Made by a program: the position numbers and the translations under genes | Shown here: positions 236-31,651 of the stretch, piece by piece | How the letters are laid out: each line of letters starts with the position of its first letter | How positions within the stretch are numbered: the first letter of the stretch is position 1 | The notes under the pieces: model-generated | Databases searched by the model: none | Told to the model about the DNA's origin: nothing | Seen by the model: the letters and a program-made list of their open reading frames with translations, nothing else | Assembly: GCF_026914265.1 (NCBI RefSeq) | Contig: NC_069132.1 | Location: 35,706,932 to 35,770,931 of the forward strand | Reading direction: 5' to 3' | DNA: 64,000 nt | Source of the DNA: Mya arenaria | Taxonomy: Eukaryota; Mollusca; Bivalvia; Myida; Myidae

Positions 236-2785
236 CTGCATATGGCATTATAAGCCAACCAGTCACTTTTCGGTGGCTGACTGTCTTGTCCTTATAATGT
301 CATATGACCCTCAGTGGTGTGTAATATTTCTTAAATGGTACCTTTCTCAGAATTAAATATAGTACCTTACCAAAGAATATCTAAAAATGCACAAATTTGC
401 TTTTTTACCCTGACATCTATTTAACTCATTTAACATAATTCAACTCAATCATCGGCAGTTTAATACGAACGTTCTGTCACATTCTTATAGTCAGATTCTG
501 AACTTTGTTAGCATACTATTTAAAATCAAGGTAATCATCTGGGCTAATCAGATAAATCCGAAGTGTTAAGTACCAAATTGTAGCAATTAAGGTCCAAGTT
601 AAATTATGTTAATTTTACTTACATAAACATGTACCGGTAGCTAAATAGAACATGGATAACAGATCTGAGAATGAAACAAGTCATCGAAACAATTGAATTC
701 CATAGGTCAACAGTTTTTTAAATCCTAAAGTGCAAGTTGAATTATTTTCACAGGTCAAACACACTAAATACCACATGTCTTATTGTGGAACTATTTGTTC
801 GAACAAAAACACTGAAATCAGATTGTAATATTTTGCTTATTAGACATGAATAGAAGCTTGCATGTCCTCATGATATGAATATGAATGCAAAAGCGAAGCT
901 TTTTTGGCACAGGTAATGAAATCTTGCATATTTTGTGCTGCAAAAGTGGTTCCATCTAGTTCTGCATATTTTCATGTATATAACAGCTACTCTTTTTATT
1001 TTTTAATGTCCGGTTAAACTTACATTGAACCAATATAATGTAACAATTGACAGGAGCGAAATGGACACAATCTGTTTCAATGGTACAGATTCCATTTAAC
1101 CCTCAACACACATAATGATAAAACAACAATAGATTTTTTAATGTTTCTATTGTCTGAGGAACTGCTTAAACAGAAGGAGTAAAACAATTAAGATTATTGT
1201 TGGAGTGACCTAGATTCATAATATTGACTTCATTGAATTCTATTCTTACATCTATGGCCATAATAGTGTGGACAAACTTATTATGCATTGAATATAAAGC
1301 AATTTATTTTTTGAAAGCTCACTGAAATATCTATATATATATGTTACCAGTGTCCCTTTGACAATGCTTATCTTAACTTTAAAAAATGAAATTTGTCCCA
1401 AGAAAAGCATAACATCAGCGCCATTTGTTTAAAGTGCACCCACTCAGGCTGCTGACATCTTGCATATAAACCCATGCCCTTTCATGAAAGTAAGGTTACA
1501 CACAACCTACACCGATAACATTTCTCAATCTTGCCAAAAAGTGTGTATTGAAATTCAGCAATGGGAACATCTCAGCCATTTTCCATCGAAAACAAATTTT
1601 ATAATAATAATATTAATTAATTGTAGTATTTTAATGTGTAATAGTCTTTTTAGGCTTAACTGCAAAATAGAAATTACTATGTGATTTATTTGCAGCGATT
1701 TACTTGCAGCATAGTTAAATGCAAAGAATTCTGAAATAGTTAACCTTCCATATACATCCGAGATGGTTTTCGATGGAAAATGGCCGAAGTGTTCGGACTG
1801 AGTATTCAGTGGATTATTTTATTCATTTACACACCAGAGGGTGTATAAAGCTATGCTGTAGCGGATATTGATTGTTGATTGGTAAGTGACAGACTCCACC
1901 TACCTTCTAGTTGATGGGTAATTGTGACAAGCATAGTCGGTATAGACGGTATGACAAGCATAGTCAGTTTGACAAGCAAAGTCGGTATTTTGTATTTATG
2001 ATTCTATTAATAGCTGATCATAAAATTTAGCTGAATTTAAATAGTTTGTTAAATGCACATAAATGGATCTAACTTAGCGTCCGAGCCAAAATTTCATCTT
2101 AAGTCCCTTATAACAGGGTCAAGCTCAGCAAACTATTTTTGATTTGATATAAATTGTGTAATATTCTCTTTATAAAGATTTTTGAGGCTTTTAAAGGAAA
2201 TAATATTTGAGATAAATTAGATAAATTACTTTTCGTTTTATAAAATCATATTTAAGTAAGTAATTTTGATAAATGAAACAAGATACTTAAGTGGGTTATG
2301 CTTAAGATTTTTTGAGAAATTTGGACCGGGGTTCTCAAAAAAACATGGGCCATTCTAGTCTTATAGGACCTTCACAATTTGAGAGCACTTTTGGTGACAC
2401 TTAATGGGTTTGTCCAGAGATAGGTCAACGTTGGTGTTAAAAGATAACATTGTTATTACAAACAAAAGACAACATGACAGGCACTTAAAAACTTCACATT
2501 TCCATTAATGACTTATTGTGAGTGTATTGAATTATTTTTTTCATTTTCTCGATCCCACTATGGCAACTGTTATTTGAACTGATATTGTGCCTATTTGAAC
2601 AATACAATCACTTCATGTATTATTATTACAAATGGTTATTAAGCTCAAAATATTCTCCCAGAAATAATGTTCTGTGATGGCGAGATAAACCTGCTAAAAA
2701 CATTTTCTGGTTGCCATTTACTAGAAAAATAGTAAATAACTATAAATCAGAAATTCTAAAGCTTAGTTATTGTCAAAACTGTAAG
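236..2785. other. non-coding stretch upstream of the GR-like locus
   Basis: AT-rich sequence with only short, compositionally poor reading frames. The only structure I can support is an imperfect inverted repeat at about 1564-1593 and 1764-1793. The segment 2500-2785 probably holds the promoter or 5' leader of the first GR-like exon, but no clear TATA box or splice site was identified. Confidence 0.5.
1564..1793. repeat. inverted repeat, arms about 30 bp, possible miniature element
   Basis: The left arm contains CCATTTTCCATCGAAAAC at about 1576-1593. The right arm at 1764-1793 is its reverse complement (GTTTTCGATGGAAAATGG) with a few mismatches further out. The loop is about 170 bp and non-coding. 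This looks like termini of a small DNA element, but a target duplication was not resolved. Confidence 0.5.
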
Positions 2786-3844
2786 ATGGAAACAAATGGT
2801 TTTAGCAAGTTCTCCAACATGAAGGTAGATTCTCCAGAAAGGCAGAGTGCAAATGAGAGCCATTTAAAAGGGGATAAACAGGAAATGGCCTGGATTGAAG
2901 AGGACCAGAGAAAGAACACGTCTTGTATTCGGAAGTTACTGAAGCCCTTTCTTGTGGCCTTGGCTATCGGTGGTTGCTTCAACTTCTGTGAAATAAACGC
3001 GGCAGCAAATGGCAAGAGGAGCAGACGGAATAAGAAATACATCTTGTCAATGATGTACCGAATATTCTGTCTGTTGGTGACACTATTGCTGATATCGAAA
3101 TACATTGTGTCCATTTTCTTTCTCCCCCCGGAGGTCAGAGTATCAGTTTTCCTTTCCTTGGTATGGACTACCAGTGTGACATGTTATTTGTTAGTATTTT
3201 TCAAAGCTACAAGTACAAGATATGGCAATATGAACAAGGCTATGGAGGAATGGGACAAAATCATAACTGAGATGAAAAACCTTGGTATGAAAATTCCAGA
3301 GGGCACCATAAAGAAACGAATAATCGCAACACTAGTGGTTGCAGTGTTGTATGTGTGTTTCAATATGGCTGGATTGACCTTTCGGGTTGAAATGACTTCA
3401 AATATTTATACATTTCCCATGAATGGAACAACAGCAGCAAAAATTCTTTATTTGTCAGTAAACACTATCCTTACTTTCACAAGTATTATTGCACTAGTGT
3501 ATATCGTGGTAATTTCAAAGTGCATGACCAAGTTTTTCAAAATGTTTAATGAGTACTTTGAAAACCAGGTCCTTAACAACCAAGACCCTCTCCAAGAAAA
3601 TTTCAACAGAATGAAGAATCTACATTTCCGTCTGTGCAAGCTCGTAGAAGTCCATGACAAAGACATAGCCTGGATTTTGGCAGCTAACATCGTGATCAAT
3701 TTGTTTCTGGCCATCTTCTGTCTCTACAATATTATGAAGACACCCATGGACAATATGTCTATGATAATATCGCTGTTCTGGTTATTCACCAGTCTTACAT
3801 TTGTTGGAGTTGACTCTGCATTTGCAGCATCCACACATGAAGCG
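2786..3844 (+). CDS. gustatory-receptor-like 7TM protein, large first exon (GR-A)
   Basis: One exon encodes 353 residues from the first in-frame ATG at 2786. The frame is open further 5' but only from a TTG. After a hydrophilic, charged N-terminus the protein has hydrophobic segments compatible with TM1-TM6, for example around YRIFCLLVTLLLISKYIVSI, IIATLVVAVLYVCF, FTSIIALVYIVVISK and WILAANIVINLFLAIFCLY. Layout and length match the insect gustatory receptor/GR-like family (Pfam 7tm_7), which also occurs in molluscs. It is homologous to the exon at 7323-8345, and both end in a WL...F segment followed by a phase-0 donor (GAAGCG|GTATGT). No TM7-encoding 3' exon is visible between here and 7322. 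It may splice to the exons at 10286-11722 or be a 3'-truncated relic. Ligand unknown. Confidence 0.75.
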
Positions 3845-3897
3845 GTATGTATGAAATTTGAAGTATCTATTAGGGCCGCCGCTAGACTAGATTATTC

Positions 3898-5190
3898 AAG
3901 TCCAGCTACGCACCTAGGGGAGTAGCTAGGCAGTAACAGATCCAGCTAGGCACACTGGGGAATAAGTAGGCTAAGACTGATTTAGTAAGCTGACCTTGGG
4001 CATAGCTTAGGCTGTAACAAATCCGGCTATGTGACCAGGGGTGTAGGTAACGCTATAACAGATCCTGAAAGGTGACCAGGGGCATAAATAGGCTATCATA
4101 GATCCATTTAGGTGACCAGGGGCGTAGGTAGGCTATAACAGATCCTGAAAGGCGACCAGGTGCATAAATAGGCTATCATGGATCCAGCTAGGTGACCAAT
4201 GCTATCATACTTCATAGAGCCAGCTAGGTGATAATTAGGCATATCTTGGGTTATCACAGATCCTGACAGGTGACCAGGGGCATATACAGGCTATCACAGA
4301 TCCAGCTAGGTGACCAGGGACATAGCTAAGACTTTTACAGATCTAGGTAGATGACCAGGGGTGTAGTTAAGGCTATCTCAGATCCAGTTAGGTGACCAGG
4401 GGCATATACAGGCTATCTCAGATCCAGCTAGGTGACCAGGGGCATATACAGGCTATCTCAGATACAGCTAGGTGACCAGGGGCATATACAGGCTATCACA
4501 GATCCAGCTAGGTGACCAGGGACATAGCTAAGACTTTTACAGATCTAGGTAGATGACCAGGGGTGTAGTTAAGGCTATCACAGATACAGCTAGGTGACCA
4601 GGGGCATATACAGGCTATCACAGATCCAGCTAGGTGACCAGGGACATAGCTAAGGCTTTTACAGATCTAGGTAGATGACCAGGGGTGTAGTTAAGGCTAT
4701 CTCAGATCCAGCTAGGTGACCAGGGGCATATACAGGCTATCTCAGATCCAGCTAGGTGACCAGGGGCATATACAGGCTATCTCAGATACAGCTAGGTGAC
4801 CAGGGGCATATACAGGCTATCACAGATCCAGCTAGGTGACCAGGGACATAGCTAAGACTTTTACAGATCTAGGTAGATGACCAGGGGTGTAGTTAAGGCT
4901 ATCACAGATACAGCTAGGTGACCAGGGGCATATACAGGCTATCTCAGATCTAGCTAGGTGACCAGGGGCATGTTTAAGCTATCACTGATCTAGCTAGGTG
5001 ACCAGGGACATAGCTAAGACTTTTACAGATCTAGGTAGATGACCAAGGGTGTAGTTAAGGCTATCACAGATACAGCTAGGTGACCAGGGGCATATACAGG
5101 CTATCTCAGATCTAGCTAGGTGACCAGGGGCATGTTTAAGCTATCACTGATCTAGCTAGGTGACCAGAGACAAAGCTGAATCATGGGTTT
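3898..5190 (+). repeat. about 40-bp minisatellite with higher-order structure
   Basis: Roughly 30 tandem copies of a unit of about 40 bp whose core reads AGCTAGGTGACCAGGGGCAT. It begins about 53 bp after the GR-A splice donor. From about 4300 onwards, variant units (GGGACATAGCTAAGAC, GGGGTGTAGTTAAGGC) recur in fixed order, giving a higher-order repeat of several units. This indicates late block amplification. No conserved coding frame. Confidence 0.95.
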
Positions 5191-6380: not shown

Positions 6381-7322
6381 GGTTTTTTTTTCTTGCGTTT
6401 ATGCTGTAGGAACTCAGTAGGGCAAGCGAGCAAGGGCTAGCAATACTTATATTTGCATTTTAAAAGAAATATTCAATGTGATTAGCAGTATCTTCTGCAA
6501 TTGAGTATTTGTTTTTAAAGAAGTGTAACAGACAAGATATGTTTGTATAAAGGAATAGCTGCTGGTTAAATGATGTTGCGCTTATCCAATTGGAGCAAGA
6601 TATTGAAATAAGCAATGACATCATAATACCTTGTGTGTTATACAATATAAACGTCAAGTTTTATCTACACAAAGGACAAGGCGAATGTAAATATATGATT
6701 TTAATTGCTTTTTATATGGAGACACTTCAGGGATGTGTTACAAAAAAGCATGTTTTCGTTCCGAAGCTTTAATATTGCCTTAGACAGCTGAGCGGTTGCT
6801 TTTATAAAACCAACTTTTGTAGAAAGTATGCTATCAAGCGCCAAAGAGCAAACTGCCAACGCTTCTAGTTGCAGTCCTGGTATTTTGTTTCTCTCGGACT
6901 TGAACAATGCTTATTTCGATTGAAAAATACAGTGTCCCTAAAATCGAACAAAATGCCAAACTTCATCATTAAACCCTGGCTACTGTCGAACTTTTTCTAT
7001 GAATTAGTCCATTACCGGTGAAGTGGACATTTTCCTGTTTTGAGTGCCTTGAATACAATAACAATACCACAAATTACATAAAACAGAGCTTGTCCATTAC
7101 GATGTGATACAAAATCAATATCAGTTGGAAGAAATAACTTTTTTTTATGCAAACAACAAACCAGAGGGGGTCATAAAAATGATTACATAATTTGCTAAAA
7201 CAACAATTCTGTTTTTGAAAGGTCTTCAGCCATTTTAGGTGATACAAGTCAGTGGTCTGAGCGGAAATCATCATTAATATTACGAGTTTGGATTTATCAC
7301 GAAGGTGACAACAGAGAGCAAA
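6381..7322. other. non-coding stretch between GR-like first exons
   Basis: AT-rich. I searched for a GR-A-specific set of small TM7 exons equivalent to those at 10286-11722 and found none. Short frames on both strands have no recognisable similarity. Should contain any promoter for the second GR-like exon, but no clear element was seen. Confidence 0.5.
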
Positions 7323-10300
7323 ATGGATAAAGACACTATACAAGAAGAAACAAATAAAAAAGAAATAACAAAGGACAACATTGAAAATGATGAAAGTGTG
7401 GAAACTTGTAATGATATAAAGTATTTCTGTTTGAAACAAATCTTGTTAATTCTTACAATAGGTGGTCTATACAGCTTTAAGGGAAAACATCAAATGCAAA
7501 ACCAGAAAAAAGAAAGGTTGTATAGATGCTACAGGGTTTTTGTTCTTCTTGTGCTGTGCCTTTACCTCGCGCATACAATTGCTGGCTTCTTTTACACTGA
7601 CCAGTCGAGTATGTACAAACGTGGGATAATATCTTCATGGATCGTTGGTGCCTTCATTAACTTTTTACTGTGTCAAAAATCTGGTAGTTTAAAATATGGA
7701 CATCAAGACAAAGTGTTCCAATTCTTCAATGAAAACTTGATGGTCGACATGAAACAGAAAGGGATTCCATTCGGAAGTAAAAAATTCAAGAAGCAACAAC
7801 AGTTCCTGTGCATTTTAGTCTGTTGTCTCGTTCTGGGAAACACTGGTTATCATGTGTGTGTATTAACTGGTCTATTTGGACAAGATGCAGAATTATTTGA
7901 GACGACTCCATTTCCTTCAAATGTGTTTACTAAAATCTTATCAACCGTAGCGAAGTTCTACGCAACATTAGCCTACATGACTCCACTGTTTTACATCATA
8001 ACAGTATCGCTGCTAATGAAAACAATACTGGATGATTTCAATAAGTTTTTTACTAATCAAACATGCCAGGAATCGTGCAAAATTCCAGAGGACATACACA
8101 GCATTCGACTGCTCTACACAAAAATCTGCAAAGCCATCTCAGATTTGGACAAAGACTTCAGTTATTTTAATGGAAACATATTTTTCTGGAATATTGGACT
8201 GGCGCTGTTTATCCTTTATGTCATCTTGAAAGGCCCCTCAGCTGTAACTGAATCATTTGAAGTTGTCATCTATGCCTATTGGTTATTGATGACCTTTGGT
8301 TTTCTGGCAGCGTTGTCAGTGGTGGAGGCGATGGTCAATAGTATGGTAAGAAATGAACTTCTTTCTGAAGCTACAGACGCTTCTTTCTGAAGCTACAGAT
8401 GCATCTTTCTGAAGCAACAGATGCATCTTTCAAAAGCTACGGATGCATCTTTCTGAAGCTATGGATACCTCTTTCTGAAGCTACGGATGCATCCTTCTGA
8501 AGCTACAGACACTTCTTTCTGAAGCTACTGATGCATCTTTCTGAAGCTATGGATACCTCTTTCTAACGCTCCAGATGCATCTTTCTGAAGCTATGGATGC
8601 TTCTTTCTGAAGCTACAGACGCTTCTTTCTGAAGCTACAGATGCATCTTTCTGAAGCTACAGACGCTTCTTTCTGAAGCTACAGATGCATCTTTCTGAAG
8701 CTACTGATGCATCTTTCTGAAGCTACGGATACCTCTTTCTGAAGCTACGGATGCATCCTTCTGAAGCTACAGACACTTCTTTCTGAAGCTACAGATGCAT
8801 CTTTCTGAAGCTACAGACGCTTCTTTCTGAAGCTACTGATGCATCTTTCTGAAGCTACAGATGCATCTTTCTAACGCTCCAGATGCATCTTTCTGAAGCT
8901 ATGGATGCTTCTTTCTGAAGCTATGGATACCTCTTTCTGAAGCTACAGATGAATCCTTCTGAAGCTACAGACGCTTCTTTCTGAAGCTACTGATGCATCT
9001 TTCTCAAGCTACAGATGCATCTTTCTAACGCTCCAGATGCATCTTTCTGAAGCTATGGATGCTTCTTTCTGAAGCTATGGATACCTCTTTCTGAAGCTAC
9101 AGATTAATCCTTCTGAAGCTACAGACGCTTCTTTCTAAAGCTCCAGATGCATCTTTCTGAAGCTATGGATGCTTCTTTATGAAGCTATGAATGTATCTTT
9201 CTGAAGCTATGGATGCATCTTTCTGAAGCTACAGATGCATCTTTCTGAAGCTATGGATGCTTCTTTCTAAAGCTATGAATGTATCTTTCTGAATCTATGG
9301 ATGCATCTTTCTGAAGCTACGGATGCATCTTTCTGAAGCTATGGATGCTTCTTTCTGAAGCTACGGATGCATGCGTCTTTCTCAAGTTACAGATGCATCT
9401 TTCTGAAGCTATGGATGCATCTTTCTGAAGCTATGGATGCATCTTTCTGAAGCTGCAGATGCATCTTTCTGAAGTTATGGATTCATCTTTCTATAGCTAT
9501 GGATGCATCTTTCTGAAGTTATGGATTCATCTTTCTATAGCTACGGATGCATCTTTCTGAAGCTTTTGATGCAGCTTTATCTTTCTCAAGCTATGGATGC
9601 ATCTTTCTGAAGCTATGGACGCATCTTTCTGAAGCAATGGATGCATATTTCTGATCCTATGGACACATCTTTCTGAAGCTATGGATGCATCTTTCTGAAG
9701 CAATAGATGCATCTTTCTGATGCATGTTGACCAAAACCCTAAGAACTACAAATCTTTTTCTCTTCACGTCATTGATGGACATAATTGATTTTTCCAGTGA
9801 ACTCATGTTTTACTAACTGTTCCAAAGCGATTATCCCATCATTTATTGGTTAAGCTATTTTGATGTGTGTGTGGTCTGTTTGTGGTGTTTGCATTTGTGT
9901 ATGTGGTGTATATACGTTTGTGTCCATGGTTCACTGTAATATTTATAGCATTATTACCTAACATGAGTAAATATGGTCAGCAAATATGAAGTCATATGGA
10001 CAGATATAACAGTGGAGGTCAAGGTCATCTATTGGCTTTTAAAACCATGTGCTTTTAATTATTGACGAAATATATTTCCCATATTGGTCGATTAAACAGT
10101 TTAATGACATCCAAGTGCTGTGTTAATTATCTGTATGAAGCAAAATGTCATGGTAACAAAAGGACTCTTGAAAGGTTTGTTTTACACGGCATAGTCTAAT
10201 AGCTGTGTAAGTTGTAAGGTTTTTGTATAAAATCTAAACACAAATCTTGTTTCACGAGGTCAATAATTCTGTTGAATATTTTCAGGCCCACGCACCGCTG

Positions 10301-11722
10301 GACACAATCTACTACATCAATGTTCAGGACATCACAGTAGAAAAACTAGCTCAGGTAGGTCAACCATTTGTGCCTCGGACTATTATCATATCAAGCATAT
10401 TCAAACATGTATTGCATGTGGGATTTCTCTAATTTGATTATTTCCTCTGGGTCTGGAGTAAGTTAATACTTAATTTTAGGCCAAATAATGTTGGCAATTT
10501 AGAACAATACAGAGTTTATTTATTCTGACTAGTCCCGGGTCAGTTTGACCACACCTAGTTGGAATGGATGAATTCTGTATTGTTCTAAATTAGTCTAGTC
10601 TTTTACATGTATGTCTCAAACAATAAAACAAAAACTACAGGGACAAGCCCAGTAGCTAAACATTTAATTATAACCCTGTTGAAAGGCTCATGGTCAAAGA
10701 CCAACACACACTTGAAGTGAGACAAGCAAGGTACAAAAGAACACAGACAGACCAAACACAAATTCTATCTTGATAAAACAATGAAAACTACAAGTCAAGC
10801 CCAGTAGCCTTATATTTTATAATAACCCTGCTGGAAGGGTCAAGGTCGGACACCACCACACACTTACAGAGAGAACACAATGCACAAAAAAAACTCAGAT
10901 AGATCACGCAAAAATTCTAACTCGATGAAACAATGAAAACTAGAGAGATGAGCCCAACAGGTAATCATTCAACAATAAAAGGACAAGCCCAGTAGCCAAA
11001 TATTTAATAATAACCCTGTTGAAAGGCTTAAAGTCAGAGACCAACACACACTTGAAGTGAGACAAGCAAGATACAAAAGAACACAGACAGACCAAACACA
11101 AATTCTATCTTGATAAAACAATAAAAACTAGAGGGACGAGCCCAACAGGTAATAATTCGACAATGAGCTAGTTCAAAGGCACACGGATTAAAAAAGCTAA
11201 AAAAGACACACAAGCCACTAGATCACATTTAATTCCAAACTAGCTATTTCTTTAGCCTCATTGTCCATAAGACCAACAAAGTGATGTATTGTAATGTCCA
11301 ATATATTTCAGCTGAACCTGTTTCTGTCCAAGCTGACGGGGACCCAGGTGGGATTCACTACATGTGGACTGCTGACTATCACAAAGGAGTTCATACTCAC
11401 AGTAAGACGAACATTCAGAACCAAGCTTTATCAATGAAACTGTAATAATTCCTGATATAAAAGTCATGGAAGCTAATCGACAGTTCTTCATGAAACTGAG
11501 ATTCATTTCAACACAAATTGTTTTATTGGTCAGTGAAGGCAAAATTCTGATTCTAAAATTTGAAGTAAAATATCTCATTAAAATGCCTCTTTGCTATCAG
11601 AAGTTTGTTGCAAAAATAAACATACTAAGACAAGTCTATGCATTAAGTAAGTAACTGTAACATTGTGATTTCAGATTGCAGGGGTGTTCCTGACCTACTT
11701 TGCTGTTCTCTACACACTGTAG
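7323..11722 (+). CDS. gustatory-receptor-like 7TM protein, complete (GR-B)
   Basis: Four exons: 7323-8345, 10286-10354, 11312-11401 and 11675-11722. All junctions are phase 0 with GT/AG sites, giving 409 residues. The ATG at 7323 is the first in frame; the upstream open codon is a GTG. Exon 1 holds an acidic/lysine-rich N-terminus and six hydrophobic segments. The small exons encode an intracellular loop (starting AHAPLDTIYYINVQD), the TM7 approach (TGTQVGFTTCGLLTITKEF) and the C-terminus GVFLTYFAVLYTL. The pattern of a large exon plus tiny 3' exons, and the TY motif in TM7 (insects: TYxxxxxQF), support a 7tm_7 chemoreceptor. Expected at the plasma membrane; ligand unknown. An AATAAA lies at 11799. 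Introns 1 and 2 contain large tandem arrays. Confidence 0.85.
8358..9730 (+). repeat. 22-bp minisatellite, about 60 copies
   Basis: Nearly pure 22-bp tandem repeat with core TTTCTGAAGCTACAGATGCA, starting only about 12 bp after the exon-1 donor of GR-B at 8345 and running about 1.37 kb. Variants (CTAACGCTCCAGATG, GAAGCTATGGATGC) are arranged in blocks that recur, so larger segments were also duplicated. No spacers, so not CRISPR-like. Open frames in it are a by-product of periodicity. Confidence 0.97.
9731..10285. other. intron 1 remainder of GR-B
   Basis: AT-rich intron between the 22-bp array and GR-B exon 2, including a GTGT-rich tract near 9860-9930. No gene or mobile element identified. 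Confidence 0.5.
10496..10591. repeat. 96-bp inverted-repeat (hairpin) miniature element
   Basis: Perfect 17-bp terminal inverted repeat: AATTTAGAACAATACAG at 10496-10512 and its reverse complement at 10575-10591. The loop is about 62 bp. Located in GR-B intron 2. Could be a very short MITE. Confidence 0.65.
10625..11175 (+). repeat. about 155-bp tandem repeat, 3-4 copies
   Basis: Diverged tandem units containing ACAAGCCCAGTAG, AACCCTGTTGAAAGGCT and AACACACACTTGAAGTGAGA recur at about 10643, 10795 and 10980, with a shortened unit near 11132. Non-coding, GR-B intron 2. Confidence 0.85.
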
Positions 11723-13820: not shown

Positions 13821-16800
13821 CTGACTCTGAACAGTAACCCGGAGTGACGTGCTTTTCCTGCCGCACACCTCCTCACAGTCAGAGACAAACTTTTCAATCA
13901 GCCGTGACAGGGTCACAAACTCTGCAGATGACAGTCGCTCGAGAAACCCATCCTGAGAAAAAGCAAAATGCATGTTGAATTTAAACCACAAGAATAAACT
14001 GTGTAATCATGAACTTTGGCTGCGATCAAGATTTTGCTCCAATGAACAAGGATCATTTTACCATTTTAAAAGTGTCAATTAGTTCTTACTTATCTTAAAG
14101 TATTACCGTAAATGACTGGGTATTAGACACCCTTTTTTCTCTCAGATTTCGATGCAAGAAATGCTTGTGTATAATACCCAGTAACAATTTTTTTAACTTT
14201 TTTTCTGAGGTCAAAGTTGGGCACTGTCAAAATATATTTTGTCAGTTATATGAGAAGGTGTGAAAAACTAGACTGCCTTTAACCTGTTTAACATACCAAT
14301 ACTACAAACTGTTGCGATAATGGTCTTGTTTTTTCGCACTTTGTCACATTCTTTATTCTTTTCTGTAGGTGTTGACATTTTGAGAACAAACCCGTACAAT
14401 ATAAGGTTTTTGCATAACTTAGCTTTTCATTCTCGACAGTTTATCATTGTATGGTTTTAAAGATAACCGTCGCCATTTTCACGAATTTTTTTTTTTATCA
14501 CTGTCAACAAACATGGTGGCCGAAAATGCCAGACGATTTGACATCTTTTCTATGCATCTTTTAACCAAAAACATAGATTAAAAGTTTTTTTCTTGGACTT
14601 TTCACCGATTTTTTCCCCTGCGTCTAATACCCCCTATCGTCTTATACCCAGTCATTTACGGTATGTGATTTAAGAACATACGAAAATGTGAACATTCTGT
14701 GCATGGCAAAATTTAAAGCCCCTAAAATATTCTTTTAAACAGTATAAATCAAACTCCACCCACCTTTCCTCGTGCTGTGAGAACCTTACAGCAGCGGTCA
14801 TGTGCGTGGTCACAGACAGCGATCATCAGTTCTTTGAGTCCTGCTACAGCATGACCGTACTCCTCACTGCTTACCATAACATCTACATCACCACTCCTGT
14901 ACGGATAGATTAGGGATGTTACGGTATTCAAAAGATTTTAATACTAAGTAAAATGGTATCACTGCCCCCACCAAACTCCTCACTGCTTAACATAACATCT
15001 ACATCACCACTCCTGTAGAGAAGATTTGAGATGTTATGGTAATTGAAAGACTATAAGAAAAAACGTAAAATGGTATCACTGCCCCAACCAAAAAAGATTA
15101 CAAAAAAAATGCTGTCATTGCCCCACCAAACTCCTTACAGCAATTACATCTACATCACCCCTCATGCAGGCATGGATTAGGATCTTACGGTAATCAAAAG
15201 ATTATAAGACTATTAGGTAAAATTCTGTCATGGCACAACCAAACTCCTCAACTCCTCACTGCCATAACATCTACATCACCACTCCTGTAGGAATAGATTA
15301 GGGATGTTACAGGTGAGGAAAACACTTACACAGGGACATAAGGGTGTTTTGGCTCCCAAAAAGGGAGGGGGAGTCTATTATAGGGTATTTGTAGGTGGGG
15401 ACAAAACTTACAGAGACGTTAAGGTGTATTAGCTTCTCTAGGGGGAGGTGGGAGTCTTTTGTAGGGACAATACTTACACAGCGACATTAGGGATTTTTGG
15501 CTCCTCTAGTGGGAGGGGGAAGTTTGTTATAGAGTATTTGAGGCTGTGGGGACAATACTTACGCAGAGACATTAGGGTGTTTTGGTCTCCAGGGGAGGGG
15601 AAGTCTATTGTAGGGTATATGAGGGGTGGGGACAATACTTACACAGATACATTAAGATGTGTTGGCTCCTCTAAGGGCTCGGGGGAATCTGTGGTCGGAG
15701 ATTGGAGGGGGGTGGGGACTTTGGTTCGTCCTGCAGCTATGCCCACTACATCGGTCACAATACCATGGAATGCCTGAAATATAAATTAATACACTTTGTC
15801 ACGCTCATTTACTTAACCATGAATTTTCAATCTTAAATTTTTAAGTTCATAAAAATGATAACCCTATAGCTCAATGCATTTACAATGCAATGCTCTATTT
15901 CAACTTGACAGACGCAATTTAACTATACAACAGAAACCACCTAGACAGCCATATCATATTAAGTACACTCCAAACCTAATACATTTGTCAATTGTTTCTC
16001 TTTAATTTGCCAAGCTGATTAACAGCACCTTTTGCCCTTTGTTACAGAAACAGTCTATGTTGGACCAAAAGTTTAAAAGACTACAGGCAAAAAATAAGGC
16101 TAACTTTTGCTCGTTTAAGGATGGTGAGAAGGTTGTTGAAGATATTCTCCATCAGGGCCGACCACTGGCGGTAGTTCAACAGCCGCATCTGGTCCGCCAA
16201 ACTGGGGGGAAATTGTGCATCAGTTAAATATTATTTGGGCTAATAAACTAATCAGACTACAGACTCAATTTTTGAAAGCAATGACATGTATTTCATATCC
16301 CAACAAAATTTTGAGAATATTAACTTGTATCAAATCATGTTTTCATCCACAGAGTTAGATTCCTTTTAAACATGACTGTTAAAATAGTATTATAAGTAAA
16401 ACACACTCTAATTTGGCAAATAAATTGTTCAAAACAAATCAACAAAAAAGAATGTCTATTTGTCAATGCCAAGCTATTCCATTAAATGCAGTGTTTTATC
16501 AGTAGCAACAATTTAAGCATTTAGCATTGTCCTTAATGTTTGTCATCATTTCCCATGGCCCTATCATTCTAAACAATTTTCAAAGCAGATCAGTTTATGG
16601 GAATTTGTCTTCATAGCCTCATTCCCATTTTAGTCGCCACTTGAGATTGTGTGAGTTGTGCACACTATAAGTGTAGCTTTATCAAGAATAATACTAAATA
16701 CTAAAGCATCATTGAGCGATGAACTAGAAGATTAAAGAACATTTTTTCAAACAGTTAACATGTGATATAGATATACACATCTACCATGTATATGTATTAT

Positions 16801-19800
16801 AGAATAACTGATAGTGCTATGATTGAACTGAGTTAGTAAAAAAGGAAGAAATAACAGTATCTAAATACACTTAAAATCAATTTCAGATATGACCATAGTT
16901 TAATGCATCTTTATTTGACAATCACAAGGTATGAGAGAATATCTAAGGTTCCTAAAATACAACTATAGATACACTGTATGACATTGCCTTAAAGGGGCAC
17001 AATAAAGCATATACTTCAAAGATGCAAAAAAAAAATATTTATTTGTGATACATTATTATATTTAACTCATCTGTCTTTAATGTTGTTTTAACTGCACACA
17101 AATCATACACCTTTTATATGTTTTTTTTTTCCATTAAGTCAAACTAGTTAAACATAATAATGCATCAAGATTAAAATTATCTTTCAGTTGTAAACCCATA
17201 TTCTACCCCTTGCACATCATGTTTACTCACCTGGAATTGTTCTCTGTGTCAATATCATCGGCCTCACATACAGCTACTATTACAGTCTGCGAACATACAA
17301 CAGAACGTATGTTATTCAATTTTTCTATCCTTAAGCATTTACAAGTGATATCATACACATGTATTTTATTGTTTTTCAGTAAAATAATAAAGGTTGATGA
17401 AAATCAATTATGGATTATCATAATTGATTATAATCAATGTTGGGAGCCCATTAACTAGTATTTGGTTATAATAAATCAATTATCATATATAATAAAATAA
17501 TCATCAAAGGGCACCCAACATTGATTATTAGATTATTTACAATTAAAGTGACACTTGTTTTTAAAATCAATACAAACACATGTATAACAAACATAAATTT
17601 TGAGTGAATTTTAACCTTTAACTACTTACTTAATAATGCATTTATGGAAAAAAATAATTACTGATAACAAGATTGTAACTGTGCATTAAAAAGCTGAAAA
17701 CGCACAAATTTTAATGATTGGTGAGTGCTAAAAGACTTACAGTGATCAACTATCGTCTCATAAGGTAGAAATAGCGTGTTTTCTGCACATTTCTTATCCT
17801 TCATAAGAACCATTGTTTTTGATATTCATTCATCCTTTTCAGGAAATGAATACAATTGCATTAATTGTGGTAAATCTGATTTGGGAGTAAGAGTGCATCT
17901 TTAACGTTCCATCATAACTAGAAACCATATAAATGTCATACCTGTTTGACAACTGCTTTCATGCCAGTGAAGGTCTCATCCCTGTATACATCCAGGAAGT
18001 CCATCTTGTGTAGTCGAAGCATACCAAACAAGATGGCAACCAGTTTTTCCTATGTTTGGTAAAAAACAAATGCTCACAACACAATATTTATACAATGAAA
18101 TAACAATAACACAATTTATCCAAGTGGTACGATTGATAATCAACATATCACAAATTAATTTTGGATTTTATTTTTTTTAAATACACAGGTAATAATGGTA
18201 GAGTCGGCACCTATTTCAAAGGCAGGGTCCAGCTACCCGCACTAGTAGAATTTTTTTTTAGGCTTCAAAATACAGTGGAACCTCACTAAACCGGATCTCC
18301 ACAAAACCGGAATCCTCGGGATACCGGACTTTTTTCAGAGTCCCGATTTTCCCCTTCTATTTTTAATGTAAAATAATCCCCACAATACCGGAACCTCGGA
18401 ATTCCGGATACCGGACAAAAAATCGAGGAAATTTGTTAGTTGTCAACGTAATTTTACCTCGCAAAACCGGACATATATTTGTTCAAACATGTCAAAATGA
18501 TTTTGTGTATTAGGAATTCGCGAATCGCGTGTCACTTTGTCACTTTGTTTTGACACCCGGTGCGTCGTTAAATATTGCACCTTTGATGTTGTGATAACTC
18601 GATAATCGATAATGATGATTGCGCTGTGGATTGACTGCCGCGCGATAATCAAACGTTAATCAAACTTGTGAAAAGAAAATTGATTGAAACATTAATTTGT
18701 TTGCTGCAGTGATCATTTTGGAGCGTTGTTTTATCTAAAGACATCTATGAGTGAATCAAATTAGAGCGGTGCGTTAATTAAACTATCAAACATACTTAAC
18801 AAGCATTAAATTACGCGAGTTGTTTTATTTTTTTAGACTCGGAAAAAAGATGTAATAAATACGCAGAATTATGTTTATCACTTTTGCATGTGCTTTAATC
18901 ATGTCTCAACCTCCGTCTAAAACTGTATAAACTGTATCTGTAATGTACATTGATATATAAATGAATATACATGTATACTCTATGCATTATTTCAAGTTAC
19001 TTGAACCATCGTTGATGTAAAATAAATGTTATCTTTATGTGTTTTTATTTTATTCCAATTTCCAACTTCCCTTTAAAGGTTAACTCAGTTAATATTTTCA
19101 GTAAACTTACTCCGTACATCAAATCCTCACTAAACCGGAATCCTCACTAAACCGGAAATTTTGCCCAGTCCGGACCTTGTCTGGTTTAGTGAGTTTTTAC
19201 TGTAACTATGATTGCTTGCTTATGAAGCATGATGATTCGAAAAAAAGTCACTGTTTTCTCAATAGCACTCATTTTCCCAGACGATGTCAGATATATTTCT
19301 TTACCTTTTCTTGAACAATTGCGCCAATTTCTTAATGACATGTTGCCGCATGATATTTGTAAATGCTAACCTCGTCCATAATTGGTGAAGTATCTGAGAC
19401 GGGTCTGTTGAGCTCGTTGGTCACATGTTTATGGAAGTCTTCCTGGATCATGATATCTATCAACTTCTGTAGCTCTGCCAGCTGTGAACCCAGATGCCTG
19501 CAAATACAGGGTTGTGTGCACTAATTGTTGCAGTTTTGCATACAATGAAAAGCAAATAGTCTCAACTAAACAATATGCCCATTTCAGCATTTCCCGAGTC
19601 ATATTTCTTCTTTTTTCTTGTTGTGGGAATTGCCAGTATATAGCGATGTTGAGGCTGAGGAAAATATGAATGTTTTGTCATCTGTGACAATCCTACAGAT
19701 TTAGATTTTTGAAGCATTGATCAAGATAGTTTGTTGCAACGAGCCCGAAGGCCCCCACAAAAACTCATTGGTCAACAGAAAGGTATACATATACCCTCAC

Positions 19801-22800
19801 CTCAACCTATTTATGCCAGCCAGCATCCGCAAGGGCACCAAGAGACTCACTGCTAGACAGAAAGGTATACATATACCCTCACCTCAAACTATTTATGCCA
19901 GCCAGCATCCGCAAGGGCACCAAGAGACTCACTGCTAGACAGAAAGGTATACATATACCCTCACCTCAAACTATTTATGCCAGCCAGCATTCACAAGGGC
20001 ACCAAGAGACTCACTGCTAGACAGAAAGGTATACATATACCCTCACCTCAAACTATTTATGCCAGCCAGCATCCGCAAGGGCACCAAGAGACTCACTGCT
20101 AGACAGAAAGGTATACATATACCCTCACCTCAAACTATTTATGCTGGCCATTATCTGCAAGGGCCCCCAGAGACTCATTGCAGTGTTTCAATGGTGGTAT
20201 ATTCAACCACCTAGTATACAGTATGCCCTCACCTTAAACGGTGTACCCCGGAGAAACTCTTGGTATACATCAGGTCCAGGGTTAACAGAAACTCGTTGAT
20301 TGACAGCAGTGTTTGAATGATGGAACAATAAACCACCTTGTATACATTATCCCCTTACCTCAAACTGTGTACCCCGGCCAGCTCCTGCGACAGAACCTCT
20401 TGTGTGGTAAATATGGTCCAGGTCCAGTGCCCCATCGAACTCATTGGTAGACATCAGTGTTTGAATGGCATAATAATATTAAACCGACTAGTATCATGTA
20501 TTCCTTACCGAAATAAATCTAAGAATACAGTATCCCCACACCTCAAACTGTGTACCCCAGCCAGCTCCTGGGAGAGAACCTCTTGTGTGGTAGATATCAG
20601 GTCCAGGGCCCCCACAAACTCATTGGTAGAGAGCAGTGTTTGAATGGTGAAATAATAAACCACCTTGTATACATTATCCCCTCACCTCAAACTGTGTACC
20701 CCAGCCAGCTCCTGGGAGAGAACCTCTTGTGTGGTAGATATCAGGTCCAGGGCCCCAACAAACTCATTAGTTGACAGCAGTGTTTGAATTGTTGGCTGGG
20801 TCTGATGTACAGTGGCCATCAGCTTTAACTACAAATGGCATCCATTTACTGTAGATGGCTTTAAATCCTTGTGGGGTCATATTAGGTAAATTTTATATTT
20901 TGGCTGTTGTCCTGAAGTTATATGTAGTAATCATGATACAATACTGATATGAATCACTTTAGAATACTAGGAAGCTTTTCTTTCATAATGTAACAAAGTT
21001 TGAATTCATGCTTGAAGAGCACTACAAAGGGATGCCATCTTTGATTTTCACAGTTAATCAAGGCCAAAAAACAAACAAATTGTGTGGTTAGGGTGTCCAA
21101 AAACAGGTAGGATTATATTTTTTTATTACCGGCAGGCTTTATGTTAGAACGTTATTGTAATAATTTGGTAAAGGTATATAAGTGTTTTCAACCACATAAA
21201 AAAATACATATTTTATTTACAATAAGTGTTTTTTAGCCGACAATTGCTACCGGTATTTCATAGGAAGGGTCGGGTTACTCGAACTAGAAGTGGGTTTTTT
21301 TAGGCCCAAGGGATGTAACTAAACAAATATACTTTCTCTAGAGTAAAAAACAAGAAGCCCAAAAGGGCCTATGCTCAACTGGCATGGCTTTTGTGGTCAT
21401 ATCAAACTACAGCATGTATGTATGGGTAAAAGGCAACAGACATACAGTTTATGTTTTGTGTTTGGGTTACCTGAAAACGTAGCACGTTCAACATCTGAGC
21501 CCAGAAAGTATTGTAAGCAGATTAGTTGCATGAACTATTTTAGTATATGCCAAGTAAGTCATCTGACAAAAAAAAATGCTTTCAAAACTGTACTCATAGT
21601 AAAAAATTCTGTAGTTTTAAAAGTTAAAAAAAAGCTGGTCAAAAGGTCAAAGTCAAGGGCATCCTAGGACAACATTGATCAATTTGAACAAACATTCACA
21701 ATCAATTGTGCTGAGATGGATGCACAAACACAAAAAGATTTTCAAACCTGTGAACCCTGGGTGTGGCCAGTAATGACACCAGGTGCATAACTTAAACATT
21801 CACAACCAATTTTGTTAAGATGAATGTGCAAACTACAGACCTTAAAACTAAAAAATGGCCTTTGGTCTTTCAACAAGAACATGGCAGAGTAATTCACAAA
21901 ATCAACTGCAGAAGCAAAAAGCAAATTTTCTCTCAAAATCCTAGACTTGCAAATTGTCTCCCTTAACTCTAGACTTGAATTTACATGTACATGTAAACAT
22001 GGCTAAAAATAGAATTTGCTCATGCAGACCTGGCTAAAAATAGAAAGCATTTCTTTAAAACTTTCATGGCCCATAATCTAGGCATTTATGGGCGGATCTG
22101 GCAGGTTTTCGAAAGAAACGGAGCTCTAATGACTATCTAGATACTGTACAAGTTTCATCGAGATACAATCAAAACTGAAGACTGTATCGTGTTCACAACC
22201 AATTGTTTACAGACGCATGAACACACGACCGCACGGACGCACGGATGCACATACTACGTACACATTACCATCGCATAATCTCTTCTGGCCTTTGGCCAGT
22301 AGAGCTAAAAACATACCAATCTAATCATTTTAACAACCTATCAACCTATAAATCTCTAGAAAATCAATATTGCAGACACACTATGGCCAAATATAAGAGT
22401 ATCAGAGATTATAATTAAAAACTATGCTTCATCAATGGTTGTTATATACATATCAAATATATCAACAATGAACTAACCTTATTGTGAAGTTGTATATAAT
22501 TGCACCTTGACTTGGTTAACCTCATTATTTTCAGAGAACCTCTCGCCATTAGATTGTCCATACTGTTCATTTTATCCCTGCAAAGAGTATCACTAAACTG
22601 TATTTAATTTGCACTTGCATAGAAATAAAATTCAGAACATGGCACTAACCAAACCAGGAATTTCATTCCTATTTACATATGAATACAAAACTCTATTAAA
22701 ATATCCCATAATCTTTGAAAAAAAACAACAACACCATACAATGTATACATATCATATTCCATGTTAAAGTGGTAAGGCGCCAGCAAACCAAAATCTTGTT

Positions 22801-25800
22801 AGCAGATACCAACACTCTTTTTTTTTTTTAACCCTTTAGCACATAGGCAAGTGGCCAGATTACACCTCCCAGTCAGTAGCCAACTTACTGATAAGCAGTC
22901 CTTATCTGTATAGGAATTTTAAAGAATCGAAAAAGAGCAAATTATTATAGCAGTATGTCCTTAAACTTGATATAACTCCAAATAATTGTGGCCCCAAATA
23001 TTTTTTATGTGAATACATTTTTTATAGATAATTAAATTATCTAATAAATGGTGTCAATGATGAAATATAAAATTATTTTATTTCATCTGTGAATGCATTT
23101 CCAAGATGGAATTATTACATTTCTATAAAATCGATCTAAATTTCATTACCCCTATCATAAAAAAGACCCATCTGGATTAAAAAGCCGACAATCGATGTTC
23201 TCGTGTATAATACACAGAAATATGGCAGGAATATCCGGTGTCATCCAGCTGAGAGATCCAGTCCAGAGTGTCTGTTTAACTTTATTACCCCCTCATAAAA
23301 TTGTTTACAAAAAGAAAACTGATAAATGTTTTCCCAGTATGAATACAAAGATCTAGACCAATGCTTGAACTATTGTGTTTACCTGACCTATTTTCGACCG
23401 GAACCATGATGGCCATCAATTAGCTCAGCAGAAAATTTACTCATCATTTTCTCAGCTACTTATTGTTTCTATTGTATGTTAGACAAAATATTATCTGATA
23501 ATAATAATAATCTTTATTGATTTAATGGTAAAATAAACTGACATAATAATATTCAATGATTTACGCATCAATGCATTTGGGGATTTTCAATACAGAACTC
23601 AGCCTCTATGTTTTATTACGTCACAGTGGATCTCACACCTGCGAGTGGCAGTATAAATACCTTCAAATTTTAGCAGACGATATTTTCAAGGTTTAAATCA
23701 ATACACAAAAGGCCTATCTTGTATACATGCGCTAAAGGGTTAAGTTCATCTAGAATGACAGCTCATTAAAGTGTTATCGTCCTCGTCTTTTACGTATACT
23801 TTCATTAGTATCATGTGTAATAAGCTTCATATGAATACCTTGACAAGCTTGTGACTTACAGTGCCATAGTTAAAGTCTTTGCACTAGACAACACAAATGC
23901 TATTACAATGCCTTAACTATTTTGTTAAAAAACAGACAAGCAAAAAAAATTGTCAATATTCCTGCAAACCCCAAATTCTACCTGAGGTATTTAATGCGTC
24001 CACAAGTTGTCTTCATTCGCTCCTGGAGTTCGTCATGTGAGGTCATGGCGTGAAAGAAGGCCTCAGACCGACGTGAGATCTGCTGGGCTATCTGCACCTC
24101 CACTATATCGAGATAGTGGCTCATCTGTTAAAAAATTAATCAATATTTGAGTATATACATAATGAGAGGTCATGGCATAAAAGAATGCCTTGGACCAATG
24201 TGAGACTTGCTGGGCACTAACTACAGCGTGTTAGACACATACCTTCTCCTGTAGCAGTTTGGATGAATGCCTGGCCCCGGGGGTGTCCACCTTGCTCTCT
24301 TCTACCTGTGTCCATGGAAATACCGCGCTGAATGTGGATGGGTTCTCCAAGTTAAATGTTGGCATCAAGAACAACTGAAATCAACCACATCAAGACATTG
24401 TAAGACTTTATATTGATTTGAGTTTAGGAAAGATACTTCCTATTGATCGAAATTTTATTTCGAGTTCAAACATAATTGTTTGCATTAAAATTGTATTACT
24501 TCTCGAAAATGCCATTCAGCCAGTCTTTTTGAAGAGACAGGATGCTGCAGTGAAGGGATGATGTCTTAAGGGAAAGAAGGACACATTATGTTGGGCTGAA
24601 AAGAATTTAAACATTGTGAATTTCACAGAAAAAGTAAGGAATCGTGCTTGAAGATGCTTAAAGAAATTTTAGGTCTCAAAAATTATGACAAGTTTGTATG
24701 AATTTTTATAATCACACACAAGTTTTAATCAAAACAAAAGAGATATATGATTATATTAAGCATTTAATTCTCTGAAGGCAGGAGGGTGCACATGCATTTC
24801 CATGAGGGCAGAAGCTTGCTTCCATAACAGGACAGGGTGCAACACCCTTCCATAGCTCTTTAGCCCATTACAGAATTACTAGTCTCAAACTATATGTTTT
24901 ACAACTTCACATGCTCAGTGTAAAGCGGGACTGTTCAGTTTACTTTTTATTTTATTTCTGCATTTCCTTCTATAAATCATTCTTGTTGTTGAATAACAGA
25001 CAGTATTATCAATATGAATATGTTTTAGATGCATCTTTTTATATATTTAACAGTCATAAATATCTGAAAATCTGAGCAACTGAGTCTTGAGGTATAAAAC
25101 TTGTTAAGAATACAATGAGGTATTTGTTAAGGATATCTAGAGTAGTGATTTTTATTTGTGAAACATTATCAGGTCCTTTGAGAGGCCTATAAAAAATTGT
25201 TTGTTTCTGGAAACTCGACCCTCCCTTATATTTTTGACATTTGCAAGAAAAAGCACTATTTACAAGAAAATCATCTTGACATAAAGTATCTTTGAAAAAA
25301 AAATTCAATAAAAAAAAATAATAATCCCTACCTTCGCTATCTAGTAATTTTGGGGATTTTACCTTAAACAAACATTTTTTTTTAGGCCTGACTGACATTA
25401 AGAAAGATTAAATATAACTGTAGTTTAAGAATAAATGGTATCATTAAAATATGTAAGTTAACATAATGCATTTGCGACACAAACAGATGGATGACACGTG
25501 TGCAAGAGTGTCTGTGAAAGAGTTCAAGGTAGAATGTGTATTAACATATTCAATGATTAATTCTAGGACAGTAAGTCAATTATAATGGACCATGTCAACA
25601 CCTTGTTACAAGCAATAAATCATATCATTTGATACCAGTACTGAAAAGGCTTCGACCAGAGAAGTAGAGACCGCCATTGTAAAAATAATGCATACAGCTG
25701 CATATTAATTTCATTGATAGCTCTGTAGGCATTGTTTACAAGGTGACATATGTTGGCTGTCTAGAACTACTGAACATGACTCATTCTCACCCGTTCCTTG

Positions 25801-29028: not shown

Positions 29029-29725
29029 TCTACTTCAATAGATGGCATTACAAATTAAACCTATACACTTTTATCAGAGAGATAGTATTCAAATTAAAGT
29101 AATAAATTAACATAAATACTGTAGACTCCACGAATCCTAAATTTACCGGAAGAGGGGTGAAGGTCGTTTTAAACATTGAGTCAAAACGGCTAATAACGAT
29201 TATTTGCAAACCGGTTATTATTACCTATTAGCAGGAAGTATGATTATTATTGGTCCCAGCTATTAGTGAAAGTCAATTAAAAAAAACTGTTCATATGTGT
29301 TCATTTATTGCAAATTATCTTCATTAAAAGTTTCCAAATGTGTCAGAAATACACGTTATTGCAAATTATACATGATACCGCGTTGAAAATATAGTAATTC
29401 GATTATTCTCCCTTGTAAACAGTAAAACTCGATTACCTCCCTCGAGCCGTTTCTATATCTTGCTTGTTCTAGATTGTTCTCAAGCCACCGAGTACATGGT
29501 AGATCTACGAGATATTTTTAGAACTGTTGTTCTCGAACACTTGATCAGACTATATAAACCGAAACTCGAAAGACCAGTTTATGTTCACGAAGATAAGTGA
29601 AAATAAATACGAAACTACTTAACTAGAAAAAAACACGTCTATAAGGAAACTTGCGATAGGATTTATTTGCGATATTGTTTAAGTGCAACACAAGCGTAAT
29701 AAAGACAAGTGGAATAAAAACAATA
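29029..29725. promoter_or_regulatory. divergent VPS54 / HSP70 upstream region with heat-shock elements
   Basis: Only 697 bp separate the VPS54 ATG (minus strand) from the HSP70 ATG (plus strand). Toward HSP70 there is a three-unit heat shock element GTTCTAGATTGTTCT (29466-29480), a two-unit element GTTCTCGAAC (29529-29538) and a TATA box TATATAAA (29551-29558), implying initiation near 29580. HSF trimers bind alternating nGAAn/nTTCn units, so HSP70 is expected to be heat-inducible. A TATA box for VPS54 was not seen. Confidence 0.8.
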
Positions 29726-31651
29726 ATGAGCGTAAACGGACCAGCAATCGGTATCGACCTGGGAACGACTTACTCGTGCGTTTCCGTATTTCAGCACGGG
29801 AAAGTGGAGATAATCGCCAACGACCAGGGCAACCGTACGACGCCCAGCTATGTCGCCTTCACGGACTCCGAGCGACTGATCGGGGATGCCGCCAAGAACC
29901 AGGCGGCAATGAACGCACAGAATACGGTTTTCGACGCCAAGCGCCTGATCGGTCGGGACTTCAGTGATACAAGCGTCCAGAGCGACATGAAGCACTGGCC
30001 GTTCAAGGTAATAAACGTAGGAGGCAAGCCTAAAATCCAAGCCGAATACAAAGGGGAGACTAAAACTTTTGCGCCAGAAGAAATCAGCTCGATGGTGCTG
30101 ACCAAGATGAAGGAAACTGCAGAGGCATATCTCGGTAAGACGGTAAAAAATGCCGTCGTTACTGTACCAGCCTACTTCAACGATGCACAGAGACGCGCTA
30201 CTAAAGATGCCGGTGCTATCGCCGGTCTCAACGTAATGAGGATCATAAATGAGCCCACGGCCGCCGCTCTGGCCTACGGACTTGATAAAAATCTGGGAGG
30301 TGAGAAGAACATACTGATATTTGACCTCGGTGGCGGTACGTTCGACGTATCCATTCTTAACATTGACGAAGGCTCATTGTTTGAGGTGAAGTCCACGGCC
30401 GGCGACACGCATCTGGGAGGTGAGGACTTCGACAACAGAATGGTGAACCACTTTATTCAGGAATTTAAGCGGAAATATAACAAAGACATCAGCAAGAACA
30501 ACAGAAGTGTCCGCCGCCTGCGAACCGCCTGTGAACGTGCTAAGAGGACTCTGTCCAGCAGCACAGAGGCTAGTCTCGAGATTGATTCCCTGTTTGAAGG
30601 AGTGGACTTTTATACCAAAATTACCAGAGCGCGGTTTGAGGAATTGTGTGCGGACCTATTCCGGGCCACCATGGAACCAGTTGAAAAGGCCCTCCGTGAC
30701 GCCAAGCTCGACAAGTCCAAGATTCACGAGGTGGTGCTCGTCGGTGGCTCTACGCGTATCCCTAAAATACAGAAGCTTCTCCAGGACTTTATGAACGGCA
30801 AGGAGTTAAACAAGTCTATCAACCCTGATGAGGCCGTGGCGTATGGGGCTGCCGTTCAGGCCGCTATTTTGTCGGGGGACAAGTCGGACGCCATTAAGGA
30901 CGTGCTGCTGGTCGACGTGACGCCACTGTCATTGGGTATCGAGACGGCCGGTGGCGTCATGACGAAGCTAATTGAGCGGAACACCAAAATCCCGACAAAG
31001 GCCACCCAGACGTTCACAACATACTCCGACAACCAGCCAGCGGTGACCATACAGGTTTACGAGGGTGAGCGAGCTATGACTAAAGACAATAATTTACTGG
31101 GGCGGTTCGACCTCAACGGAATTCCCCCAGCACCGAGAGGCGTCCCTCAAATCGAAGTTATTTTTGACATTGACGCTAACGGCATTATGAACGTTTCAGC
31201 GGAAGACAAAAGTACAAGGAAACGTAATAAAATTACAATCACAAACGACAGTGGGCGTCTGTCAAAGGCAGATATCGACAGAATGGTGAACGACGCTGAA
31301 AAATACCGAGAGGAAGATGAAATGCAACGACAGAGGGTAGAGGCTCGCAATAAGCTAGAGAACTACGTATTCAGCGTTAGACAGGCGGTAACTGAAGCTG
31401 ACGCCAGTAAAGTGTCGGCTGACGACAAGGCAAAGGTCATCCAGCTGTGTGAAGAGTGCACGAAATGGTTGGACAGTAACTCGTTGGCTGACAAGGAAGA
31501 GTTTAACCACAAACTGGACGAATTACAGAGGCAGTGTTCCCCGATCATGGTGAAACTTCACGGTGGCCAACAGCAGGGACAGCATGGAAGTGGCCCCGCT
31601 GGTGGTCAGCCAGGCGGATGCCAGGGTCCTACCGTTGAAGAGGTCGACTAA
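29726..31651 (+). CDS. HSP70: cytosolic heat-inducible HSP70 (HSPA family), intronless
   Basis: ATP-dependent chaperone of 641 residues with no intron. The nucleotide-binding domain carries the three HSP70 signatures [20 protein letters not shown] and [14 protein letters not shown]. The interdomain linker is [13 protein letters not shown], followed by the substrate-binding domain and a C-terminal EEVD that recruits TPR co-chaperones and marks the cytosolic/nuclear class. The start is the first in-frame ATG; upstream open codons lack one. The tail before EEVD is G/Q-rich and lacks GGMP repeats. Substitutions relative to typical HSC70 include CVSVFQHG (usually CVGVF) and [10 protein letters not shown] (usually STGKENKITI), suggesting a divergent inducible paralogue. 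It is more GC-rich than its surroundings. AATAAA lies at 31957. HSEs and a TATA box lie upstream. Confidence 0.97.

Follow-up and report, generated by a model that had tools for sequence, protein, structure and literature searches.

The VPS54 locus and intron 13

The analysed window of 64,000 nucleotides (C11:35706932-35770931 of the Mya arenaria assembly, a 1.216-Gb genome with 18 contigs) carries the genes VPS54 and PHF10. Contig C18, with COX1 at base 181, is probably mitochondrial, and the other 17 contigs are probably chromosomes; the published reference has 1.22 Gb and 17 scaffolds (PMC10663159). A human VPS54 protein sequence matched the minus strand exon by exon in the spliced alignment. 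A genome search with a 324-residue piece of the product detected 8 exon matches, all at this single locus, and found no second VPS54 locus.

Beside the VPS54 5' end lies an HSP70-like, intronless open frame of 663 codons (29660-31651, by eye), and hAT-type-transposase-like frames were seen by eye on the minus strand at 33135-34992. The last codons of ORF 2678-3925 (no Pfam match) resemble by eye the first copy of the following 40-bp array (3900-5167, 30.5 copies by TRF), which by eye overlaps coding sequence. The 22-bp array of 61 copies at 8341-9720 starts about 15 nt past a donor-like ATG/GTAAGA that ends ORF 7278-8390, for which there was no Pfam match. TRF also detected arrays of 27/67-bp units (57029-57548) and of 129-bp units (58314-59036), both in the neighbourhood of a minus-strand, TPR-like frame.

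Exon numbers 13 and 14 are those of an earlier sequence-only reading and correspond to the 12th and 13th exons of the present VPS54 model, which begins at the first recovered exon and from which three false exons were removed. Exon 13 (15643-15773, minus strand) was placed by hand-corrected spliced alignment with an open frame across the junction, and exon 14 (14764-14896, minus strand) by spliced alignment and copy alignments. Intron 13, on the minus strand, starts with the donor GTAAGT at 15642, ends with an acceptor AG whose final base is 14897, and is 746 bp long.

Two arrays of edge copies in intron 13

The sequence-only reading had described intron 13 as made of copies of its own boundaries, with about four donor-side and about three acceptor-side copies that meet near 15310 and fill nearly the whole 746 bp. 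Tandem repeats were found at that place, and the alignments bore out the description: we detected four intronic units of exon-13 tail plus donor (U1-U4, array B) and three of acceptor plus exon-14 head (V1-V3, array A), the two arrays adjoin at 15312/15311, and 322 bp of donor-side and 388 bp of acceptor-side copies account for all but 36 bp of the intron. The outermost donor with the first intron bases (GTAAGTATT, 15634-15642, minus strand) and the acceptor segment with the outermost acceptor (14897-14923, minus strand) are presumed to be the functional ones, according to the donor and acceptor positions and the frame test.

Array B has its source in the last ~77 nt of exon 13 (within 15643-15773, minus strand, unit alignment). 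Its copies, located on the minus strand by repeat search and alignment, are U1 (15554-15633, donor GTAAGT at 15562), U2 (15469-15553, GTAAGT at 15477), the shortened U3 (15403-15468, GTAAGT at 15411) and U4 (15321-15402, GTAAGT at 15329), and a 9-nt residual of the next unit stands after U4 (15312-15320). Counted from the real donor, successive GTAAGT motifs are spaced by 80, 85, 66 and 82 bp. Identity over whole units is 69-76% to the real exon edge and 74-78% between copies, and in the unit alignment the authentic donor junction (U0) is the outermost member of the array. The motif GTCCCCACC, found at both unit ends, was largely generated by the copying itself; the residual TTCCTCACC at 15320, the sole pointer of its kind in array B, hints at earlier microhomology.

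Array A has its source in the first ~39 nt, perhaps ~89 nt, of exon 14 (within 14764-14896, minus strand, alignments). Repeat search and alignment located V1 (15191-15311, acceptor CAG with the exon-14 head from 15284) and V3 (14924-15038, acceptor CAG with the head from 15012) on the minus strand; V2 (15039-15190, same strand, alignment) has its head from 15163, an acceptor decayed to CAT and an extra internal insertion. Together with the real head at 14896, the spacing of exon-14 heads is 116-151 bp. Whole units are 72-80% identical between copies and 57-68% identical to the real edge, the V1 acceptor is 96% identical to the real acceptor across one 49-nt stretch, and the authentic acceptor junction (V4) is again the outermost member in the unit alignment. 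Past the 39 exon nucleotides, ungapped comparison with exon 14 gave 21/50 for V1 (p 0.0024), 16/50 for V2 (p 0.17) and 13/50 for V3 (p 0.50), while gapped local alignment of the spacer with exon 14 gave no support (p 0.85, 0.998 and 0.985 for V1-V3). An exon origin of the spacer is thus favoured by the ungapped comparison for V1 only, and the extent of the array A unit is uncertain.

With exon-only 120-nt probes the edge similarity of intron 13 is 26 on the donor side and 37 on the acceptor side, compared with a 99.9% point of 17 and a maximum of 20.5 in the cross-gene null.

Splice sites and reading frame

GTAAGT is present in all five donors, and AG was kept in three of the four acceptors. 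The five donors and three AG acceptors allow 15 pairings, of which 14 run into a stop; the frame stays open for a single one, that of the two outermost sites. With each inner donor the stop lies one codon beyond the junction, and with the two inner AG acceptors a frame shift leads to a stop. The automatic gene model had put three small false exons in the arrays and moved both real edges; this reading, with extra exons or exon extension, was rejected because the frame is open with the single splice 15642->14897 and closed with the 14 others. Scored simply against the consensus, the inner sites are at least as strong as the outer ones, the donor at 15562 and the decayed acceptor at 15163 excepted.

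Exon definition pairs the nearest splice sites across the exon, and would presumably choose the outer pair at both ends of intron 13; a first-transcribed-acceptor rule or a shortest-intron rule would not choose it. Five near-identical donors against three acceptors, with one open combination, make this intron a natural splice-site competition experiment.

Edge copies in other introns of the window and in other genes

We retained 158 introns in 14 genes from the models of a spliced protein-to-DNA aligner: 11 of VPS54 (intron 13 in its hand-corrected form) and 7 of PHF10 from the window, and 140 of 12 other genes (CCT1-8, HSPD1, MCM5, MCM6 and ATP5B). These 12 genes were located by Pfam families and picked without regard to edge copies; MCM5, MCM6 and ATP5B were picked for close-set exons, before any copy test. 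The second CCT1 copy (C13, near-identical to that on C10, 10 introns), 8 of the 15 PHF10 introns, poorly supported VPS54 introns, the first MCM5 intron and the first two ATP5B introns were left out, and the AAA and E1-E2 ATPase searches were not part of the gene set. The null for edge copies was formed by the introns of other genes within the same set.

The two near-identical CCT1 copies (C10:65896928-65908017 and C13:57383762-57392400) differ in one intron, of 3,205 vs 742 bp. Match scores point to further pairs that are nearly identical: MCM exons at 1.08/4.39 Mb of C11 and at 29.4/31.2 Mb of C10, and AAA exons at 80.45/80.82 Mb of C6. All these pairs are either recent segmental duplications or uncollapsed haplotypes.

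Among the 158 introns, exon-only 120-nt probes compared with their own intron exceeded the 99.9% point of the null at 11 of 312 edges and junction-spanning probes at 12 of 315, where ~0.3 were expected in each case; at the 99% point exon-only probes gave 15/312 edges against 3.1 expected. In the 12 other genes, copies of the own flanking exon exceeded the 99.9% point in 10 of the 140 introns (union of the probes; ~0.6 expected). The copy reaches the splice junction in seven of these ten (CCT7 4081; CCT2 5593 and 5275; CCT1 11217; HSPD1 10988 and 4386; and, marginally, CCT8 9266) and stops short of it in three (CCT1 8251; CCT6 1386; CCT8 4772, score 20.0). The copies in CCT6 1386, CCT8 4772 and CCT8 9266 are weak, and the CCT6 1386 gene model is doubtful, as it contains a 7-nt exon. 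The 32 introns of MCM5, MCM6 and ATP5B showed no edge copy above the 99.9% point.

Acceptor copies in CCT7 (35/35) and CCT2 (51/52) are identical or nearly so, and copies in CCT1 (49/63) and HSPD1 (73/99) are older; judged by these identities, own-edge copies in different genes appear to span a range of ages. CCT2 also carries a donor array of 19-bp units, and CCT1 three old donor-side copies with a fragment. In HSPD1 intron 10988-11534 (coordinates of the joined sequence) we detected two acceptor-side copies, both old (73/99 and 53/75), and on the donor side a weak one below the 99.9% point. Clear on the acceptor side and weak on the donor side, this intron may be another case in which both edges were copied.

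Within the window, the end of exon 20686-20828, together with its donor, recurs in the 1,188-bp VPS54 intron 20685-19498 (19735-20685, minus strand, by eye). Three long, five short and one truncated copy were counted by eye, filling ~0.95 kb of the intron, and TRF reports 82 bp x 5.0. In PHF10 the tail of exon 48447-48559 and its donor GTAAGT are followed downstream by two copies of themselves (48560-48786, plus strand, alignment). In a 118-bp VPS54 intron (24125-24242, minus strand), a segment lacking the acceptor copies part of the next exon at 78% identity (50/64).

The exon-intron junction compared with its surroundings

A positional profile was made for the 12 other genes with 60-nt probes seeking a copy in the same intron. 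For introns shorter than 1,500 bp a copy was found for 3/238 probes at the junction, 3/232 at 30 nt into the exon and 4/224 at 100 nt into the intron, and the rate is ~1-2% throughout the stretch between 30 nt on the exon side and 150 nt on the intron side; it was 8/122 at 200 nt into the intron and 1/176 at 70 nt into the exon. With all intron lengths included, the counts rise from 5/276 at the junction to 20/54 at 500 nt, with 1/203 at 70 nt into the exon. Copies scoring above 32 were obtained with 263 of 2,400 interior 52-nt probes (120 introns), compared with 7 of 252 junction probes.

A duplication hotspot at the junction is not supported: in short introns copies are about as frequent beside the junction as at it. 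Tandem duplication seems largely indifferent to the exon-intron boundary, with counts small enough to allow a moderate excess at the junction. A special edge-copying agent is unnecessary, since short-intron junctions are copied no more often than the neighbouring sequence and the pattern recurs.

Origin of intron 13

We consider it highly probable that intron 13 grew by splicing-shielded tandem duplication. Short tandem duplications would occur in this genome largely irrespective of where exons end. One that crossed a donor would give exon tail-donor-exon tail-donor, and one that crossed an acceptor would give acceptor-exon head-acceptor-exon head. If the outermost donor and acceptor stayed in use, as exon definition would ensure by pairing the nearest sites across the exon, the mRNA would be unchanged and the duplicate would join the intron. 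The inner copies, hidden from the protein, could then amplify by unequal exchange or slippage and decay, and such events at both edges would leave nearly all 746 bp edge-derived. What was observed are the copies with their order and divergence, the effects on the reading frame, the recurrence and the positional profile; the splice choice, exon definition, neutrality, the 45-nt ancestor and the mutational mechanism are what we infer.

The sequence-only reading had proposed an independent duplication at each exon-intron edge. The independence is consistent with the data: the spacings differ (66-85 bp between donors, 116-151 bp between exon-14 heads), no repeat family spans both arrays, and the real junction is outermost in each. 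What that reading missed is that the same pattern recurs at other introns of the window and of other genes, and that short-intron junctions are not copied more than the sequence alongside (small counts). That one intron has two arrays of similar age exceeds what independent rare events would predict, and this counts against the duplication model.

If the arrays grew by repeated duplication, the original intron is expected within a 45-nt core that the innermost donor (U4) and the innermost acceptor (V1) delimit (15285-15329, minus strand). This core includes CTAAT, which we take to be a branch-point-like motif, and is a possible remnant of the intron before growth. None of the 158 modelled introns is that short (the minimum is 84), and the array A unit is unsettled; the 45-nt ancestor is for these reasons uncertain and is put forward as a proposal.

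The inner sites might instead be functional decoys, kept by selection, for instance as additional U1/U2 binding platforms that improve exon recognition or adjust expression by way of nonproductive splicing. All four intronic array B donors are intact GTAAGT, and among 50 gapless 6-column windows of that array the donor hexamer alone is invariant (binomial P ~0.02, post hoc); the inner sites also match or beat the outer ones in consensus score, save 15562 and the decayed 15163. Across genes the retention is close to that of decaying sequence: a hand tally found GT or AG kept in 12 of 19 old copies (below ~85% identity, junction judgeable), where ~10 of 19 would be expected at 74% identity, and the site was lost in HSPD1 4386, CCT8 9266 and CCT1 8251. 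We read the inner sites as being in neutral decay with one local hint of retention, at the array B donor, and consider the decoy explanation improbable. Creation of intron 13 from exon repeats, with its present sites derived from the duplicated segments, would fit a documented mechanism (PMC3443670 and PMC4974935) and the exon-like character of most of the intron in the alignments. The arrays stem from two different exons, 13 and 14, each with an authentic splice site, so that the junctions probably predate the copying; no repeat family spans both arrays and the sites do not come from one duplicated exonic segment, which makes an intron gain very improbable.

The arrays could also be an older, unrelated satellite that resembles the exon edges by chance: TRF detects ordinary tandem arrays here and at many places in the window, and the units in intron 13 are tandem and of similar length. 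Both edge scores are above all 12,480 null comparisons, the repeat register takes in the authentic junction as its last member at both ends, the unit is related to the host exons and no other genomic copy was found, so that a chance resemblance is hardly credible. Haplotype mis-joins could be suspected from near-identical gene pairs in the assembly such as CCT1 on C10 and C13; as whole-unit copies differ by 20-43%, far above allelic or read error, an artefact is extremely unlikely for intron 13, and could apply in a few cases of young copies, CCT7 and CCT2. A dispersed element was also considered and rejected, as a search of the 1.216-Gb genome with the 803-bp stretch gave no match other than the stretch itself (among the best candidates, with very common words skipped). 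No terminal inverted repeats were detected, with 0 inverted pairs of at least 15 nt in 14700-15900.

Together with intron 13, the similar copies in several unrelated genes suggest that duplication of their own edges can lengthen introns in this genome. Edge copying may even be a general way for introns to lengthen here, with about 1 intron in 15-20 keeping a recognisable own-edge copy and some introns grown almost entirely so from near-minimal size; we give this tentative extension slightly less than an even chance. Exon definition, which takes the exon-proximal sites, would allow it.

Intron lengthening is usually credited to transposon insertion and generic indels, and a minority of the introns studied here keep a fossil record of another source of length, the neighbouring exons. 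Own-edge arrays make it possible to compare exon and intron definition directly between genomes: if edge copying is tolerated through exon definition, intron-definition genomes, which would pick the innermost sites, should purge such duplications. Exon-like sequence next to exons can also mislead gene prediction, as in the three false exons made here by the spliced aligner.

Comparison with known systems

Boundary duplication, intron gain by tandem duplication and splice-site arrays are already known. A literature search of mainly openly available papers found no intron built from copies of both its own edges, and within the same scope no account of introns growing in general by such own-edge copies. 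Intronic minisatellites are head-to-tail arrays with units of tens to more than 100 bp, and slippage or unequal exchange makes them longer; the VPS54 unit differs from theirs in that it consists of an exon edge of the host gene and the splice site there. The polyubiquitin gene UBC contains tandem splice-site arrays and, like intron 13, has repeated units each with a splice site (PMC10809524). The UBC repeats are coding and their AGGT sites serve as both donor and acceptor, whereas the VPS54 repeats are intronic with one kind of site per array.

Intron gain by tandem duplication (PMC3443670; Drosophila cases in PMC2891723, citing Gao and Lynch 2009) shares with the VPS54 case an internal genic duplication silenced by splicing. 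As described there, that model makes an intron within an exon, whereas the VPS54 arrays lengthen an apparently existing intron. A close likeness is found in the potato RNA-dependent RNA polymerase gene, where a direct tandem duplication spans an existing intron-exon boundary and carries the splice signals along (Ma et al. 2016, PMC4974935). A boundary-crossing unit of this kind is present in both VPS54 arrays, as their direct repeats hold exon sequence, the splice site and intron sequence. In potato one extra copy made a new intron and a new exon, whereas in VPS54 the exon chain is apparently unchanged and 4 and 3 extra copies, old and decayed, lie in one intron at both its edges.
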